Source: Rhodocyclaceae bacterium
GTDB taxonomy: Bacteria > Pseudomonadota > Gammaproteobacteria > Burkholderiales > Rhodocyclaceae
Reading direction: 5' to 3'
NCBI GenBank assembly: GCA_018262875.1
Contig: JADFDL010000068.1
Coordinates: 1 to 8,093, forward strand
DNA: 8,093 nt
The position numbers and the translations under genes are program-made. Below the pieces are notes generated by a model. That model searched no databases. It was not told the origin of the DNA and worked only from the letters and a program-made list of their open reading frames with translations. Position 1 is the stretch's first letter; every line of letters begins with the position of its first letter. Shown one piece after another: positions 1,095 to 8,093 of the stretch.

Positions 1095-1123
1095 ATTGTA
1101 TTCGAGTCGCCGCCACCCGTCAC
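1095..1123 (-). promoter_or_regulatory. Candidate sigma70-type promoter for the PHA-system gene
   Basis: On the minus strand GTGACG (1123-1118) and TACAAT (1100-1095) are separated by exactly 17 nt. The -10 matches TATAAT at five of six positions and the -35 matches TTGACA at four of six. Transcription would begin near 1088, giving a leader of about 30 nt before the ATG at 1056. It lies in the gap shared with the divergent kinase gene. Confidence 0.45.
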
Positions 1124-1171
1124 CGGCTGTGGGATTTTGCACATTGCCGGGGATGGCGCGAGAATAAGACA

Positions 1172-1186
1172 GTCCTCTGGCAGGAC
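1172..1186. repeat. Short inverted repeat GTCCT-N5-AGGAC upstream of the kinase gene
   Basis: GTCCT (1172-1176) and AGGAC (1182-1186) are exact inverse complements around CTGGC. The element lies 44 nt before the kinase ATG, roughly where a promoter or regulator site would be expected. No convincing plus-strand -35/-10 pair was found in the gap; the best is a poor TTGCAC-N17-GAGAAT at 1137-1165. The element could be an operator or chance; it is short. Confidence 0.25.
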
Positions 1187-1204
1187 ATCCTTTCATATAG
1201 GCAA

Positions 1205-1218
1205 GGCGCCAACGCGCC
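1205..1218 (+). repeat. Small GC hairpin in the kinase leader
   Basis: GGCGC (1205-1209) and GCGCC (1214-1218) pair around CAAC, ending 12 nt before the kinase ATG at 1231. No Shine-Dalgarno is recognisable in the remaining spacer. The hairpin could influence initiation, or it may be chance in GC-rich DNA. Confidence 0.25.
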
Positions 1219-1230
1219 GCAGAATCGCCC

Positions 1231-4200
1231 ATGTTCAGCATTCCGATCCAGATTGCCATCGTCAACTCCATCATCGGCAATGCCGTGCTGGCGGGGATAT
1301 TCCTTTACCTGTGGCGGGTGGACAAGCGCGAAAGTGCGCTGGGCTACTGGGCGGCTGCCTCCGCCGCCAGCGCCTGCCGGATTTCTTTTCGGCTCATCCG
1401 GCTGGAGGGCTACCCGGCGGCGATTTATGGTGAAGCGCTTTGCGGCGCGATTTCGGTCGTCCTGCTCTGGATGGGCACGCGGGTGTTCGTCGGGAAGCCC
1501 TTCGAGGCGCCGTGGAAGGTTGGCCTGGTCGCGGCGGCGGGCATGGGCGGGGTGGCTGGCCTGGGGGCAATCGGCGCCATCCCGATCGTCATTCCTTACC
1601 TGATTGCCGGGGTGGTTTGCTTTCTGGTCGGCCTCGCGCTGCTGCGGCGCGGGCGCGAACATCCCGGCGTCGGCTACAGCATCATCGGCTTCTTCTTCGC
1701 GCTCTACGGCGGCTACCTTTTCGTTTTTTCCAATCTGGCATCGGCCCCGCAGGATCCGCGAGCCTACATTTTCGGGCCGATCATCAATCTGGCGATGGGC
1801 ATGGTGCTGCTGGTGGTCACGCAGCGCAAGCAGCAGTTTGCCGCCGACAAGCTCAGCGATGCGCTGCTGCGCGAGGCGGAGGGGCGCCGCGCCGCGGAAG
1901 ACGTGGGGCTGCAAAGCGAGCAGCGCTATCGCGCCATCGTCGATACCACGCGCAGCCTGATCGGATTGCTGACGCCGGACGGGACCCTGATCGATATCAA
2001 CCGCACGGCGCTGGAGCGGGTCGACGTCCGCCGCCAGGATGCGATCGGCAAGCCGTTCTGGGAGACGCCGTGGTGGACGCATGACGCGGAGCAGCAGCAG
2101 CGGCTGAAGCAGGCGATCCGGCGGGTGGCTGCGGGCGGTCACGACCGATTCGAATCCACGCACCCCTCCGCCGACGGGAGCATCGGCTATTTCAATTTCT
2201 TCCTGACGCCGATCCGCGACGCTGCCGGCCAGGTGATCTACCTGGTGCCCGAGGCCCACGATATTTCCGCCCGCCGGCGGATTGAGCAGACGCTGCATGT
2301 TGCCGAGCAGCGCTTTCGCGCCATCAGCGAGGGGTCCATGCTGGGGGTGTTCGCCACGGATCCGCAAGGCAAGACCAATTTTTTCTCCCGGCGCGCCAAC
2401 GAAATCACCGGCATTTCGGAATCCGCCGCGATCGGCGGCCGCTGGGCCGAACATGTTCATGCGGGTGACCGGAGCCAGCATAAAACACAATGGCGCAACG
2501 CCATCGCGGAGCGCAAGCCTTTCGTCAGCGAGCGCCGCTATGTGCGGCGGGACGGCAGCATTTCCTGGGCGCGTGTCCATGTCGCGCCCATTATCGAGGG
2601 GGAGAGCCTGCTGGGCTTTGTCGGCACCGTCGAGGACATCAATGCCCGCAAGCAGTCCGAACTGGCCTTGCGCGAGAGCGAAGAGCGGTTTTCCAGCTTC
2701 TTCGCACTGTCTCCGGAACCTTTTGTCGTTGCCGCTTATCCCGTGGGAGAGTTCATCCAGGTGAATGAGGCCTGGGAGCGCACCTTCGGCTTCAGCCGGA
2801 ATGAGGCGGTCGGACGGACCGGGATCGGCCTCGGCCTGTGGGAGAACCCCGAGGACCGGCGCAAGCTGTACGAGGCCATCGTGCGCCGCGGAGAGGCGCG
2901 CAGCGGCGAGACAAGGCTGCGACGCAAGAACGGCGATTTCATCGTCGTCCAGATGTCGGCGCGGGTGGTGACGGTAGGACAGAATAAATACATCCTGTGG
3001 GGGGCCCATGACGTCACCGAGCGCAGGCAGATGGAGCAGGCGCTCAGGGAAAGCGAGGGGCGCGTTTCCCAGGTGTTTTACCTGCTGCCCGACCTGGTGA
3101 CCATCAGCAGCCTCGAAGAAGGGCGCTTCGTCGACATGAACTACCAGTTTGAAGCCATGATGGGCTTTACGCGGGAAGAAGCCATCGGCAAGGCGACGGC
3201 GGATCTCGGCATCTGGGTGCATGCGGGGCAGCGCCAGCAGTTTATCGAGGACGTGAAACGCGACGGCATGGTGCGCAGCCGGGAGATCGCGGTGCGGCGC
3301 AAGGATGGCCGCGAGATGATCTGCGAGACGTCCGGCAGCATCTTCGACTGGCAGGGCCAGAGCCTGCTGCTGATGGTGACGCGCGATGTGACGGCGCAAA
3401 AGGTGCTGGAAAGGGCGCGGGTTGCAGCCGAGGCGGGCTTGCGCGAAAGCGAGGAGAAATTCTCCAAGGCTTTCTACAGCAGTCCGGACTACATGACGAT
3501 CAGCCGGCTGTCGGACGGCGTCATCCTGGACTGCAACGAGGCGTTCGAGAGTTTTACCGGTTATGGCCGCGCCGAGGCCATGAATCGTACAACGCTCGAT
3601 CTGGGCATCTGGCTGCATCCGGCGGAACGCGCCCGGTTTGCCGACATCCTCAGGCAGCAAGGTTGGCTGCGGGATTTCGAGTGCACCTTGCAAGGCCGCG
3701 ACGGACGCCGGATGATCGCCTTGGTGACGGCTTCGACGATCGACATGAACGGCGAGCAATGCGTCATCGCCGTCGCGCGCGACGTAAGCCGGCAACGCCG
3801 CATGGAGCAGGAATTGCGCGCCGGCGAGGAAATGTTTTCCACCATATTCCATCAACTGCCGGTAGCCATTGCGGTGTCGACAAGACAGGAAGGCCGCTAT
3901 ATCGACGTCAACACTGCCTGGCTGGAGCAGTTCGGCTACAGCCGCGATGACGTCGTCGGCAAGACCGGGCGGGAGTTGAATTTCTGGGTCGACCTCGACG
4001 ACAGGGCGAAACTGGCGGAACATCTTGACCATGAATCGGCTTTCTTCAGACGCGAGATCGCTTTCCGCGCCAGGGACGGGCGGCTCATTCTGACCGAGTG
4101 CTCCGGGCGGCTTTTCGGTATTGGCGGCGAGGAAGTCATCATCTGGAGCGCGCCGGACATCACTGAACGCAAGCGCATCGAGCAGGCGCTGCGTGAGGGC

Positions 4201-5451
4201 GAGGAGATGTTTTCCGCCATTTTCCACCGCTCGCCGGTGGCGCTCGGGGTGACATCGGTCCCCGATGGGCGCTATATCGATGTCAACGAGACATGGGAAA
4301 GACAGTTCTGCTTTACGCGCGAACAGATGATCGGCCGGACCAGCCTGGATATCGGACTTTGGCTCGATCCGGATGAAAGGACACGGTTGTTCTCGGATCT
4401 CGATAAGGATTCGCAGGTGCAGAATCGCGAAGTACACTTCCTCTGCGGCGATGGGCGGGAAGTGCTCTGTGAGTTGTCGGGCCAGGTTTTCGAGCTGAAT
4501 GGCAGGAACGTGCTCCTGTGGGGCGCGCACGATGTTACCGAGCACCGCCGAGCCCAGCGCGAGATCGAGGAACTCAACCTGCGTCTGGAGGCTCGCGTGC
4601 TCGAGCGGACCGCCAAACTGAAAAAGGCCAATGCCGAGATCGAGACGGCCATGGAGTCTCTCAAACTGGCGCAGCATGAGCTGGTACGCGCGGAGAAGCT
4701 GGCTGCGCTGGGATCGCTCGTGGCGGGCGTGGCCCATGAATTGAACACCCCCATCGGCAACAGCGTGACCGTGGCCAGCACGCTGCACGACAAGACGGAG
4801 GTTTTTGGCCAGGCCGTGGCATCGGGCAAGCTGAAGCGCTCGACCCTCGACCATTACCTGGAGGACACCCGCACCGGCAGTGATTTGCTGCTGCGCAACC
4901 TCATGCAGGCGAGCGATCTGATCGTCAGTTTCAAGCAGGTGGCGGTGGACCAGGCCAGCGCCCAGCGGCGCCGCTTCGGCCTCAGGCAGGTTGTCGAGGA
5001 AGTGGCCGCCACCCTGGCGCCGATGCTCAAGAAGACGCCGTTCAAGCTTGAGCTGGAATTGGCCGATAATGTCGTCATGGACAGCTTCCCGGGCTCGATC
5101 GGGCAGGTGATAACCAATCTTGTTACCAACGCACTGGCCCATGCCTTCGAGGATCGGGAGTACGGTGTCATGCATATCAAGACCTGGCGGCGAGGGCTGC
5201 ATGGGGTGGAGATGGTGTTTACGGACGATGGCGTGGGTATTCCGGAAGCCGACATGAAGCGGGTGTTCGATCCTTTCTTTACGACGAAGCTCGGGCGGGG
5301 CGGCAGCGGTCTCGGCCTGCACATTGTCTATAGCCTGGTGACGCGCGTGCTGGGCGGCAGAATCCAGGTGACGAGCCAGCCCGGCCTGGGCACCCGCTTC
5401 CAGATCAGCCTGCCCATGAAAGCGCCCGACAGGGCGGAACGCGAGACATGA
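1231..5451 (+). CDS. Multi-PAS membrane sensor histidine kinase
   Basis: This is a 1406-residue sensor kinase. Residues 1-197 hold about six or seven hydrophobic segments (roughly 7-28, a weak 37-57, 65-87, 97-117, 119-138, 148-169, 179-197) with short loops, so there is no periplasmic sensor domain. A helical linker leads to seven PAS modules: 230-344, 359-469, 484-594, 609-719, 741-851, 866-976 and 991-1101. A coiled coil (about 1107-1160) then leads to the phosphoacceptor motif VAHELNTPIGN with H1169. The HATPase follows with N box N1296/N1300, G1 DDGVGI 1332-1337, F box FDPFFTTK from 1346 and G2 GGSGLGL 1357-1363, so the catalytic core looks intact. The start is well fixed: an in-frame TAG at 1198 precedes it and ATG 1231 is the first start codon after it, although no Shine-Dalgarno is visible. 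The stop overlaps the next ATG (ATGA), implying translational coupling with its likely cognate regulator. The signal is unknown; PAS modules 3-7 are clearly paralogous. Confidence 0.95.
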   Translation: MFSIPIQIAIVNSIIGNAVLAGIFLYLWRVDKRESALGYWAAASAASACRISFRLIRLEGYPAAIYGEALCGAISVVLLWMGTRVFVGKPFEAPWKVGLVAAAGMGGVAGLGAIGAIPIVIPYLIAGVVCFLVGLALLRRGREHPGVGYSIIGFFFALYGGYLFVFSNLASAPQDPRAYIFGPIINLAMGMVLLVVTQRKQQFAADKLSDALLREAEGRRAAEDVGLQSEQRYRAIVDTTRSLIGLLTPDGTLIDINRTALERVDVRRQDAIGKPFWETPWWTHDAEQQQRLKQAIRRVAAGGHDRFESTHPSADGSIGYFNFFLTPIRDAAGQVIYLVPEAHDISARRRIEQTLHVAEQRFRAISEGSMLGVFATDPQGKTNFFSRRANEITGISESAAIGGRWAEHVHAGDRSQHKTQWRNAIAERKPFVSERRYVRRDGSISWARVHVAPIIEGESLLGFVGTVEDINARKQSELALRESEERFSSFFALSPEPFVVAAYPVGEFIQVNEAWERTFGFSRNEAVGRTGIGLGLWENPEDRRKLYEAIVRRGEARSGETRLRRKNGDFIVVQMSARVVTVGQNKYILWGAHDVTERRQMEQALRESEGRVSQVFYLLPDLVTISSLEEGRFVDMNYQFEAMMGFTREEAIGKATADLGIWVHAGQRQQFIEDVKRDGMVRSREIAVRRKDGREMICETSGSIFDWQGQSLLLMVTRDVTAQKVLERARVAAEAGLRESEEKFSKAFYSSPDYMTISRLSDGVILDCNEAFESFTGYGRAEAMNRTTLDLGIWLHPAERARFADILRQQGWLRDFECTLQGRDGRRMIALVTASTIDMNGEQCVIAVARDVSRQRRMEQELRAGEEMFSTIFHQLPVAIAVSTRQEGRYIDVNTAWLEQFGYSRDDVVGKTGRELNFWVDLDDRAKLAEHLDHESAFFRREIAFRARDGRLILTECSGRLFGIGGEEVIIWSAPDITERKRIEQALREGEEMFSAIFHRSPVALGVTSVPDGRYIDVNETWERQFCFTREQMIGRTSLDIGLWLDPDERTRLFSDLDKDSQVQNREVHFLCGDGREVLCELSGQVFELNGRNVLLWGAHDVTEHRRAQREIEELNLRLEARVLERTAKLKKANAEIETAMESLKLAQHELVRAEKLAALGSLVAGVAHELNTPIGNSVTVASTLHDKTEVFGQAVASGKLKRSTLDHYLEDTRTGSDLLLRNLMQASDLIVSFKQVAVDQASAQRRRFGLRQVVEEVAATLAPMLKKTPFKLELELADNVVMDSFPGSIGQVITNLVTNALAHAFEDREYGVMHIKTWRRGLHGVEMVFTDDGVGIPEADMKRVFDPFFTTKLGRGGSGLGLHIVYSLVTRVLGGRIQVTSQPGLGTRFQISLPMKAPDRAERET
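2305..4533 (+). repeat. Tandem array of equal-length PAS modules inside the kinase gene
   Basis: Six coding repeats run from each E-x-[RKM]-[FV] start to each D-[VI]-[TSN] end: 2305-2637, 2680-3012, 3055-3387, 3451-3783, 3826-4158 and 4201-4533. Each is exactly 333 nt (111 codons inclusive) with no net insertion or deletion. The last five also share a tryptophan at offset +53 (W537, W662, W794, W919, W1044). In at least the first three of these, an asparagine at offset +28 was also checked. The last two share runs such as GRYIDVN and EGEEMFS/AGEEMFS. This indicates repeated intragenic duplication. Confidence 0.85.
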
Positions 5452-7691
5452 GCAAAAGCGGCGACAAGGCGGAGGCGGGCGACCTGGTCGAGATTGTCGA
5501 CGACGGGGACGATGCCGCCGTTCCCGCCGGCCTGGCGTCATGGCGGGTGCTGATCGTCGATGACGAACGCGAGGTGCATTCGGCCACGCTGTTCGCGCTC
5601 AAGGGCCTCATCGTGGCGGGGCGCCCGCTGGCGTTCCTGCATGCCTATTCGGCCGCCGAGGCGCGCGGCATCATGGGCAGCACGCCGGACGTTGCCGTCG
5701 TGCTGCTCGATGTGGTGATGGAGAAGGGCGACGCCGGACTGCAACTGGTGCGCACGATCCGCGACGAGTTCGGCTGCGTCGACACCCGCATCATCCTGCG
5801 CACCGGCCAGCCGGGTTATGCGCCCGAACTCGATGTCATCCGCGACTACGACATCAACGATTACAAGACCAAGTCCGAGCTGACCCGCACGCGGCTGGTG
5901 ACATCCCTGACGACGGCGATTCGTTCCTATGAGCAGATTCGCATGGTGCTCGAAAGCGAACGCGGCATGGACGGAATCGTTCGCTCGGCGCCTTCCCTTC
6001 ACGCGCAACATGACCTGAAAGGCTTCGCCAAGGCAGCCCTGCAACAGGTAGTCATGCTGCTGGGTACGCCGGCGCACGGTGTTTTTTGCGCCCGCCGCGA
6101 AGCCGGTGGGGAAACGAACGATGAACCGCCCTACTTTGTCGCGGCGGCCTGGGGGTGCTATGCGGGCGAGACGGATCGCGATATCGATGCGGTGCGCAAT
6201 CCGGAACTGATCGAGATGCTGGCGCGCTGTCGCCGACCGGGCGGCCAGCTGCTGGAGTCGAATGCCTTGTCGCTTTGCCTGGGAGAAGGCGACAGCCGGG
6301 CCTTGCTGCATGTGCGCGTCGATCGCCCGCTCAACGATCTGCAGCGCCGGCTGGTGGACGTGCTGGCCGTCAGCATTGCCGTCGGCCTGGAGAACGTGGT
6401 CCTGTTTCGCCAGCTCCGCAGCTATGCCTATTTCGAGCCCCTTTGCCACTTGCCGAACCGGGCAAATTTCATTTCGCAGATCGACTTGCGCCTGCAGCGC
6501 GGCGAAACGGACTGGACGGCGTCGGTGGTGGATATCGACCATTTTTCCGACATCAACGCCGCCCTCGGCCATCAGACGGGCGATCAGTTGCTGAAAGCGG
6601 TGGCCAGGCGCTTGCGCGACGGGCTTCAGGATGAGGTTGTGCTGGCCAGGGTATCGGGCGGCACGTTCGGTCTGCTCGGACGGGACGGAGCGCTCGATCC
6701 CGAGCAGGTGATTGCCCTGTTCGCGCAGCCGTTCGTGGTCGATGGCCAGTCACTCATGATTCAGCCCTGCCTGGGTCTGGAAAAGCTCTCCGAAGCCGAA
6801 GGCACCGGAGCGGATGTCTTCAAGAATGCCAATATCGCACTCTCCCGCGCGCGAGTGGACCGGCGCGATCGCTGGCAATACTTTACCCGCGACATGCAGG
6901 TTGCCACACAGCAGCGCCTGGGCCTGCTGCATGACTTGAGGCACGCGGCCGAAGCCAAACGCGGGCTGTCCCTGCATTACCAGCCCCAGGTCGATATCGC
7001 GCAAGGCCTCGTGACTGGCGCGGAAGCCCTCATGCGCTGGACCAATGATCGCGGCGAGAGCGTTCCGCCCTATCGGTTCATTCCGGTGGCCGAGTATTCC
7101 CATCTCATCATCGAGCTGGGGGAATGGGTGCTGTGCTCGGCTTGCGGACAGTTGCGCGAATGGGATCGCGCCGGTCTCGACGGGCTGCGCATGTCGGTGA
7201 ACGTCTCGCCGGCGCAGTTTCGCGATCCGGGATTCGTCGACATGGCACGGCGCTGCATTCTGGACTCCGGCATCGATCCGGCCCGGATCGAACTTGAGGT
7301 GACGGAAAGCATGGCGCTGACCGAAACCGAATCCGTAGTGGCGACGCTGCACAAAATGAGGCAATTTGGCGTCAGCATCGCGGTGGATGATTTCGGCAGC
7401 GGTTTCTCTTCGCTCGGCCACCTGCTCCAGCTTCCCCTGAACCGCCTCAAGATCGACCGGGTTTTCGTGTCCGACCTTGCGGCCGGCAGTTCGGGTTCAA
7501 CCATAGCGGAGATGATCGTCAAGCTGGGCAAGATGCTCGGCTTGTCGGTGATCGCCGAGGGCGTCGAGACCAGCGAGCAGCTCGACGCCCTGCGCGAGAT
7601 GGGCTGTCAGGAAATACAAGGCTTCTATTTCTCGCCGCCGGTGCCCGCCGGCGAATTCGCTGCGCTCCTCAAGAAGAAGCTTTACCGCTAA
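5448..7691 (+). CDS. Response regulator with DUF3369, degenerate GGDEF and intact EAL: predicted c-di-GMP phosphodiesterase
   Basis: This 747-residue cytoplasmic regulator starts at an ATG overlapping the kinase stop. After an acidic 31-residue tail comes a receiver (33-155) with D38, D39, phosphoacceptor D88, T119 and K140. Its RTGQPGYAPE and YDINDYKTKSELT stretches are typical of receivers joined to DUF3369, which fills about 165-320. The GGDEF-like domain (about 325-485) keeps LPNR (334-337), D362 and TGDQLL, but its signature is SGGTF (403-407) and no RxxD inhibitory site precedes it. It should not make c-di-GMP. The EAL domain (about 492-742) has E526-A-L, N585, E617, E620, D647-D648, K668, E704 and Q724, the full set expected for activity. 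The likely job is to hydrolyse c-di-GMP to pGpG under control of the upstream kinase, lowering c-di-GMP and thereby affecting motility or biofilm. The direction of phosphorylation control cannot be read from sequence. Confidence 0.94.
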   Translation: MSKSGDKAEAGDLVEIVDDGDDAAVPAGLASWRVLIVDDEREVHSATLFALKGLIVAGRPLAFLHAYSAAEARGIMGSTPDVAVVLLDVVMEKGDAGLQLVRTIRDEFGCVDTRIILRTGQPGYAPELDVIRDYDINDYKTKSELTRTRLVTSLTTAIRSYEQIRMVLESERGMDGIVRSAPSLHAQHDLKGFAKAALQQVVMLLGTPAHGVFCARREAGGETNDEPPYFVAAAWGCYAGETDRDIDAVRNPELIEMLARCRRPGGQLLESNALSLCLGEGDSRALLHVRVDRPLNDLQRRLVDVLAVSIAVGLENVVLFRQLRSYAYFEPLCHLPNRANFISQIDLRLQRGETDWTASVVDIDHFSDINAALGHQTGDQLLKAVARRLRDGLQDEVVLARVSGGTFGLLGRDGALDPEQVIALFAQPFVVDGQSLMIQPCLGLEKLSEAEGTGADVFKNANIALSRARVDRRDRWQYFTRDMQVATQQRLGLLHDLRHAAEAKRGLSLHYQPQVDIAQGLVTGAEALMRWTNDRGESVPPYRFIPVAEYSHLIIELGEWVLCSACGQLREWDRAGLDGLRMSVNVSPAQFRDPGFVDMARRCILDSGIDPARIELEVTESMALTETESVVATLHKMRQFGVSIAVDDFGSGFSSLGHLLQLPLNRLKIDRVFVSDLAAGSSGSTIAEMIVKLGKMLGLSVIAEGVETSEQLDALREMGCQEIQGFYFSPPVPAGEFAALLKKKLYR

Positions 7692-8093
7692 GCGGCCTTC
7701 AGCGCCCGATCGAGATCGGAGAGGATGTCGTCGATATGCTCGATGCCGATCGACAGGCGCACCATGTCTTCCGACACGCCGGCCTTGGCCATTTCCGCGG
7801 CGGAGAGCTGGCGGTGCGTGGTCGAGGCCGGGTGGCAGGCTAGCGATTTGCAGTCACCGATGTTGACCAGCCTGACCACCAGTTGCAGCGCATCCTGGAA
7901 GCGCGCACCGGCCGCCTTGGCGTCGCCTGTGCTGCTCTTGACGCCGAAGGTGAGGATGCCCGAGGCGCGCCCGCCCATGTACTTTTGCACCAGGCCGTGG
8001 TCCTTGTGGTCCGGCAGGCCGGCGTAATTCACCCAGGATACCTTGGCGTGGTCCTTGAGGAACTGCGCGACTTTCTGCGTGTTTTCGCAGATG
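7688..8093 (-). CDS. metY: O-acetylhomoserine sulfhydrylase (aminocarboxypropyltransferase), C-terminal part, cut by window edge
   Basis: This minus-strand reading frame enters from the right edge and ends at TAG (7690-7688). It gives 135 C-terminal residues of a protein usually about 425-430 long. Recognisable blocks are WVNYAGLPDHKDHGLVQKYM, GRASGILTFGVK, the HPASTTHRQLS segment and VRLSIGIEHIDDILSDL near the end. These are hallmarks of the Cys/Met-metabolism PLP enzymes, and the long YAGL...QKY form fits the O-acetylhomoserine branch. The Arg in VRLSIGIE is the expected substrate-carboxylate ligand; the PLP lysine lies outside the window. The enzyme makes homocysteine from O-acetylhomoserine and sulfide in methionine synthesis. 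A GTG at 8032 is internal, since the frame continues with family-like sequence upstream (ICENTQKVAQFLKDHAKVSW). Its stop overlaps the regulator gene stop by 4 nt (CTAA), tail to tail. A related sulfhydrylase such as the O-acetylserine type is a less likely alternative. Confidence 0.92.
   Translation of the reverse strand, partial: ICENTQKVAQFLKDHAKVSWVNYAGLPDHKDHGLVQKYMGGRASGILTFGVKSSTGDAKAAGARFQDALQLVVRLVNIGDCKSLACHPASTTHRQLSAAEMAKAGVSEDMVRLSIGIEHIDDILSDLDRALKAA

Follow-up and report, generated by a model that had tools for sequence, protein, structure and literature searches.

PAS modules of fixed length on linkers stepping by seven residues, and their ordered subsets in the orthologues of a Rhodocyclaceae sensor kinase

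The stretch of DNA analysed here, which we call the window, comprises 8,093 nucleotides from a Rhodocyclaceae bacterium, and carries the gene for a sensor histidine kinase (1231..5451, +), an open reading frame of 1406 amino acids with a hydrophobic N-terminus, seven PAS modules and a DHp/catalytic domain. The PAS S-box profile (TIGR00229, Pfam PAS clan) matches seven stretches of the kinase and reaches 415.5 bits against a curated cut-off of 22.9. The N-terminal region (residues 1–229; 1231..1917, +) is hydrophobic in sequence and, judged by eye, likely contains several membrane helices; a Pfam search of these residues matched no family. With residues 1–225 as the query, 36 proteins were found, the window's own among them, and the closest named record, from a groundwater Rhodocyclales metagenome genome, is 90% identical over this region. 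The PAS modules follow on the same strand: M1 (residues 230–344, span 114; 1918..2262), whose closest solved relative is TodS PAS1; M2 (359–469; 2305..2637), which reaches a span of 110 through compensating indels and has no Trp at offset +53; and five modules that carry this Trp, namely M3 (484–594, Trp537; 2680..3012), M4 (609–719, Trp662; 3055..3387), M5 (741–851, Trp794; 3451..3783), M6 (866–976, Trp919; 3826..4158) and M7 (991–1101, Trp1044; 4201..4533), which by their relationships below belong to classes A, B, D, E and F, respectively. Further along lie His1169 (GVAHELNTPIGN; 4735..4737, +), the likely phospho-acceptor as judged from its H-box, and a HATPase_c catalytic domain (residues 1290–1397; 5098..5421, +; PF02518, E 3e-23) in which we located motifs that we take to be the N, G1, F and G2 boxes. 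No HisKA family matched the DHp region at E up to 0.01; the H-box HELN is present at residue 1169. The equivalent of this histidine lies 68 residues past the D of the last module in 31 of 35 orthologues, the distance being unread in the other four, where the exact motif was not found.

The kinase stop codon overlaps the start of a second gene (5448..7691, +), which encodes a response regulator with a receiver, a DUF3369 domain, a degenerate GGDEF domain and an EAL domain and is the likely partner of the kinase. Its receiver scores below the Pfam cut-off (22.5 vs. 30.2 bits). A search of 15 further genomes from the genus found an orthologue of the kinase in 8, and the regulator gene adjoins it in all eight; the receiver and EAL motif residues are kept in the window and in five of the eight, the remaining three having been missed by the search motif. 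The GGDEF motif reads SGGTF in the window and SGDTF in two relatives. Given this degeneration, the regulator is likely not a cyclase, and the retained EAL motifs, together with its position beside the kinase, suggest that the likely output is c-di-GMP breakdown. Elsewhere in the window, two genes lie upstream at 496–1116, one for an acyl-CoA-binding protein (+) and one for a polyhydroxyalkanoate granule-region protein (−), and 7688–8032 (−) holds the 3′ end of an O-acetylhomoserine sulfhydrylase-like gene, matched by the last quarter of the family profiles only. An open frame of 1473 amino acids runs antisense to the kinase (1120–5541, −); GC-rich codon use is its most likely cause. The same genome encodes a second multi-PAS protein (G000:C7:2380-3615, −), which matches kinase residues 733–1144 at 37% identity.

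The original prediction held that modules 2–7 each measure 110 residues from the E of an E-x-x-F start to the D of their end, with module 1 at 114 and a Trp at +53 in modules 3–7. Our re-measurement returned all these distances exactly, and the E-x-x-F start holds with the exception of module 4, which begins EGRV. The additional claim of no net indel between modules 2 and 7 survives for modules 3–7, which align as five rows over 111 columns with zero gaps, but not for module 2, which can be aligned with them only through several offsetting gaps; its sharing of the number 110 is thus a coincidence, and as it also lacks the Trp, five modules rather than six are truly equal in the sense meant. 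Two observations had been named that would count against the idea. Compensating indels inside modules are found in module 2 and are absent from the gap-free modules 3–7, whereas freely varying module length among orthologues is not seen: the length is nearly fixed, and it is the presence of modules that varies. Module 2 keeps a length of its own, 110 residues in all 34 orthologues that possess it, and the Trp-type modules of the 35 full-length orthologues span 110 in 161 of 164 cases (111 in two and 109 in one). All 167 modules examined have the Trp at +53, and with it go Phe at +7, Pro at +11, Asn at +28 and Arg at +59.

The same length recurs outside the kinase. As a background we took the 82 proteins that lack the kinase's N-terminal region from the best 120 of 3870 matches; of 597 modules, the 150 that covered the profile incompletely were set aside. 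Among the matches listed, 351 of the 447 full modules in these proteins carry the Trp, and 321 of those 351 span 110. Another 36 proteins, drawn from genomes at the level of genus, family and order, gave 110 in 56 of 75 measured spans and the Trp in 66 of 78 modules. In a less selected sample of PAS domains from the phylum, which is small and weak (33 spans and 12 linkers from 30 loci, collected with a home-made profile), the spans range from 102 to 116 with a mode of 113 (15/33). As 110 recurs in Trp-type modules of other proteins, the length is a trait of a PAS subtype, and the equality of the modules does go beyond chance, but mostly as a property of that subtype.

The spacing of the modules is regular in a different way from their length. 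Along modules 1–7, the start-to-start pitch is 129, 125, 125, 132, 125 and 125 residues, non-uniform because the linker after module 4 has 22 residues and not 15. The strictness lies in the linkers, whose lengths differ by one heptad. This B–D linker (3388..3450, +), with a D-to-E distance of 22, is one heptad longer than the others, and the predicted structure gives it a helix of 30 residues (H244–273) against 23 (H119–141) at the 15-residue A–B linker, in a monomer model with a pTM of 0.32 and a mean pLDDT of 85 that is broken at the D–E linker. Every one of the 198 linkers in the 35 full-length orthologues measures 15 or 22 residues from the D to the next E; the linker of 22 usually follows module B, lies between A and B instead in P0033 and is found in both places in P0035. 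Linkers of 8, 15 or 22 residues also make up 280 of 283 in the 82 background proteins among the matches listed, with three off phase, though these proteins were found through similarity to this array and may favour its pitch; the proportions are 35 of 35 in the 36 other proteins and, in the small phylum sample, 4 of 12 linkers off phase. The lengths differ by multiples of seven, as in a heptad-linked tandem PAS array, and hydrophobic residues are near constant at positions 11 and 18 counted from the D, and at 25 in the 22-residue linkers. The proposed selection on stacking geometry accordingly finds its support in the linkers, with their 8, 15 or 22 residues and heptad hydrophobics, and less so in the module length, a subtype trait found elsewhere too. 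Linkers that step by heptads and tandem PAS domains at regular spacing have both been described before (in the available text of PMC6798134), so the linkers of the kinase are a natural instance of a known rule.

The orthologues found via the N-terminal 225 residues differ in length mostly in steps of 125 or 132. In a module tree, their Trp-type modules sort into six classes, A–F, each forming one cluster across orthologues except for the long-branched last module of P0036. After the truncated P0024 and P0037 were dropped from 37 proteins (P0044 and P0045, both M1-BCDEF like P0034, stand outside the count), the 35 full-length orthologues display 14 architectures, all of them ordered subsets of M1-M2-A-B-C-D-E-F, with 3–6 modules of the A–F type in each. 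The full row occurs in 8 of the 35, at least one module is missing in 27, and none of the 35 has a duplicated or reordered module. The window has the architecture M1-M2-A-B-D-E-F, without C, shared with three other proteins, P0004, P0006 and P0035. Within the genus, the eight genomes with an orthologue contain the arrays ABCDEF (three times), ABCDF (twice, once with the N-terminus cut by a contig end), ABCF, ABCEF and ACD (once each). Retention is uneven: A and F are each kept in 33 of the 35 orthologues and the inner modules in 23–25, and parsimony on a tree built from the rest of the protein needs at least 2 state changes for A, 8 for B, 7 for C, 4 for D, 7 for E and 1 for F, in total 29; the tree is unrooted and gives no direction of loss or gain. 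Joining one module start to another cannot remove F, and this may account for some of its retention.

Excluding the divergent P0033–P0036 and the eight full arrays left 23 proteins with 27 joints, the places where modules are missing, and these were located by likelihood against the class profiles; P0027 and P0032, which lack E and F at the end of the array, contributed no joint for that loss. Measured from the nearest module start, all 27 joints lie between −16 and +6 residues, with support intervals from −16 to +9. For the missing module C of the window, the joint maps to 3448..3471 (+), with likelihood support from −1 to +6 residues relative to residue 741. The close relatives P0018 (ACDEF) and P0019 (CDEF) are one clean module apart, and the C module of P0019 starts with residues resembling those of the lost A. 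At the DNA level, the best 30-nt stretch of paralogue identity begins five residues ahead of the module in each of four arrays, with identities of 0.64–0.72 against means of 0.50–0.57. In two of these arrays, the longest in-register exact run is 17–24 nt for six module pairs and falls each time in the linker or start region; the other two arrays, one of them the window's, contain no pair with an in-register exact run of 16 nt, so long homology is absent there now. Two full six-module arrays of the same genus (L034 and L035, in genomes G003 and G006) have in-register exact runs of up to 23–24 nt at the linker. Joints at such positions would be expected from mutation at linker homology and equally if hybrid PAS cores are selected against, and the data do not separate the two.

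A recent tandem duplication, one source suggested for the equal modules, fares badly. It could draw on the pairing of A with C, B with D and E with F in the module tree (the last with a support of only 84) and on E and F being the closest pair in the window at 44% identity; yet the five window modules are 28–44% identical as proteins, which leaves no room for recent duplication, and about 50% identical as DNA, and the module classes are common to the orthologues, each being older than the orthologue split. In a wider tree, limited to at most two modules per database protein and weakly resolved, B and D group closer to PAS modules from other kinases than to the modules beside them, and we regard a recent duplication as extremely improbable. 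From the same tree, a single in situ origin of all the modules was considered and is not supported, B and D being nearer to other kinases' modules, with the weak resolution of the tree applying here too. It would be another matter if the array grew, with orthologues gaining modules independently, and parsimony on an unrooted tree leaves the direction of change free. Independent gains would be expected to nest inside neighbouring classes or to alter the order, however, whereas each class forms one cluster (the last module of P0036 aside) in a constant order, and growth of this kind is unlikely.

Assembly is another concern, as many of the orthologues come from metagenome contigs, and the genome of the window itself, 54% complete, is split into 334 contigs; some of the differences might then be assembly errors. 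Against this, two single-contig genomes differ (ABCF in G001 and ABCEF in G002), which means that not all the differences between arrays are assembly errors, the window's architecture recurs in three other proteins, and the paralogues are near 50% identical, with in-register exact runs of no more than 24 nt in the four arrays examined; we thus give artefacts of metagenome assembly very little weight. A reading with much more in its favour is that nothing here is specific to the kinase, the equal length being the fixed size of a common PAS subtype and the pitch a known heptad spacing. For length and pitch, this is compatible with the explanation that we prefer and is probably correct, as other proteins show the span of 110 and the +53 Trp too, and heptad linkers in regularly spaced tandem PAS domains are on record (in what is available of PMC6798134), but it leaves the 14 ordered-subset architectures and their joints unexplained.

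Our preferred explanation, to which we assign a probability of roughly 0.7, is a row of PAS modules held in phase: 110-residue modules on linkers of 15 or 22 residues, a predicted coiled-coil relay through the dimer and the loss of whole modules at the linkers. The sequences themselves establish the fixed module span, the linkers in steps of seven residues, the ordered subsets, the positions of the joints and the adjacent regulator; the steps that connect them are conditional. Same-subtype modules of fixed span form one row on their 15- or 22-residue linkers, which, extrapolating from a monomer model, would pair as a parallel coiled coil through the dimer, and this relay would pass signals in phase to the kinase. 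The ancestor probably held all six modules A–F, the other architectures being losses, and transfer between relatives could restore modules. The joints may have arisen where the linker DNA is conserved, by recombination or slippage, and the products to survive would be only those with intact modules and a kept phase; loss would come in whole units probably because the spacer is the easiest place to cut and is also the predicted coiled rod that would keep the phase. At the output end, the kinase would phosphorylate the adjacent EAL protein and so control c-di-GMP breakdown. A bolder version, which we put forward tentatively and consider somewhat less probable than its opposite, is that the 15-residue linker acts as a cassette joint, at once one step of the coiled coil and the DNA homology by which exactly one sensor is removed, such that a kinase of many inputs could be re-tuned in frame and in phase with no hybrid PAS core.

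Within the preferred explanation, the conserved Trp would line the PAS pocket as Trp85 does in TodS, whose PAS1 domain has 12 toluene-pocket residues, Trp85 among the lining (according to the portion of PMC4861429 at hand). A profile alignment of the A–F modules with M1 and TodS, in which this was the only pocket position compared for A–F, puts the +53 Trp at the position of Trp85 and runs ungapped from the conserved Asn to this Trp. The match supports the earlier suggestion of a ligand pocket marked by the Trp and makes a pocket role in A–F likely. M1 is itself a relative of TodS PAS1 (5hwv, 5hwt; E 1.9e-12), having identical residues at 6 of the 12 pocket positions, one conservative change (V59 = Ile) and clear differences at five (F46L, I114H, V126F, A145P and G147A); its Trp281 and Trp282 match Trp84 and Trp85 of TodS, and by this analogy M1 may sense aromatic compounds. 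Both Trp residues of M1 are invariant in 34 of 34 orthologues examined. The FAD-binding PAS domains of NifL, Aer and MmoS have a conserved Trp inside helix Fα (as given in the accessible text of PMC10468136), and the +53 Trp, which precedes the predicted helix Fα by three residues in 5 of 5 modules, appears to differ from it in position as far as predicted secondary structure tells. The solved PAS domain closest to the array profile (3bwl, E 4.8e-8) has Met at the Trp position.

Several known systems share parts of this picture. The coiled-coil linkers of tandem PAS receptors step by seven in length as well, as in the engineered YF1 and YHF (in the available text of PMC6798134), but in the kinase the steps occur in nature, among orthologues set apart by the presence or absence of entire modules. 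KinA provides a precedent on a small scale for PAS number differing between orthologues, with three PAS domains in Bacillus subtilis and two in other Bacillus KinA proteins, and the accessible text of PMC3734008 contains no joint analysis; the kinase, by contrast, has 3–6 modules of one subtype, 14 ordered subsets and a linker quantum kept throughout. In the periscope proteins, also bacterial, gene length varies by whole tandem domains, but these are surface stalks with adjacent SHIRT domains 82–100% identical (as far as PMC8201768 was available), whereas the modules of the kinase are 28–44% identical, likely cytoplasmic and kept in order and identity; the kinase shares with them a variable domain number (3–6) and lacks the high DNA identity between repeats (mean 0.50–0.57 in four arrays). 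TodS is related through M1 and differs in kinase and output. By E-value, the best structural matches are PpsR (4hh2) and DosP (9cmf and others), at low TM-scores, and two adjacent modules compared with the FixL PAS pair (8js5, 8js6) give TM-scores of 0.61–0.68 by target for the better chains and about 0.42 for the others; none of PpsR, DosP and FixL is a five-module array of the kinase's PAS subtype. A literature search that covered few subscription journals found no description of a single PAS array whose ordered subsets form a series with mapped joints, and it is this series with its module joints that is new here.

The role of each PAS domain in long arrays is rarely known, and here there are 14 natural versions of one array with defined modules missing. 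The linker quantum is the same throughout, and the series could show which modules sense and which only transmit, and whether selection preserves the phase, while the alignment of the conserved Trp with a known pocket residue suggests where ligands might be sought. If the 15-residue linker does act as a cassette joint, the genus would represent a natural module-deletion series of one signalling array.
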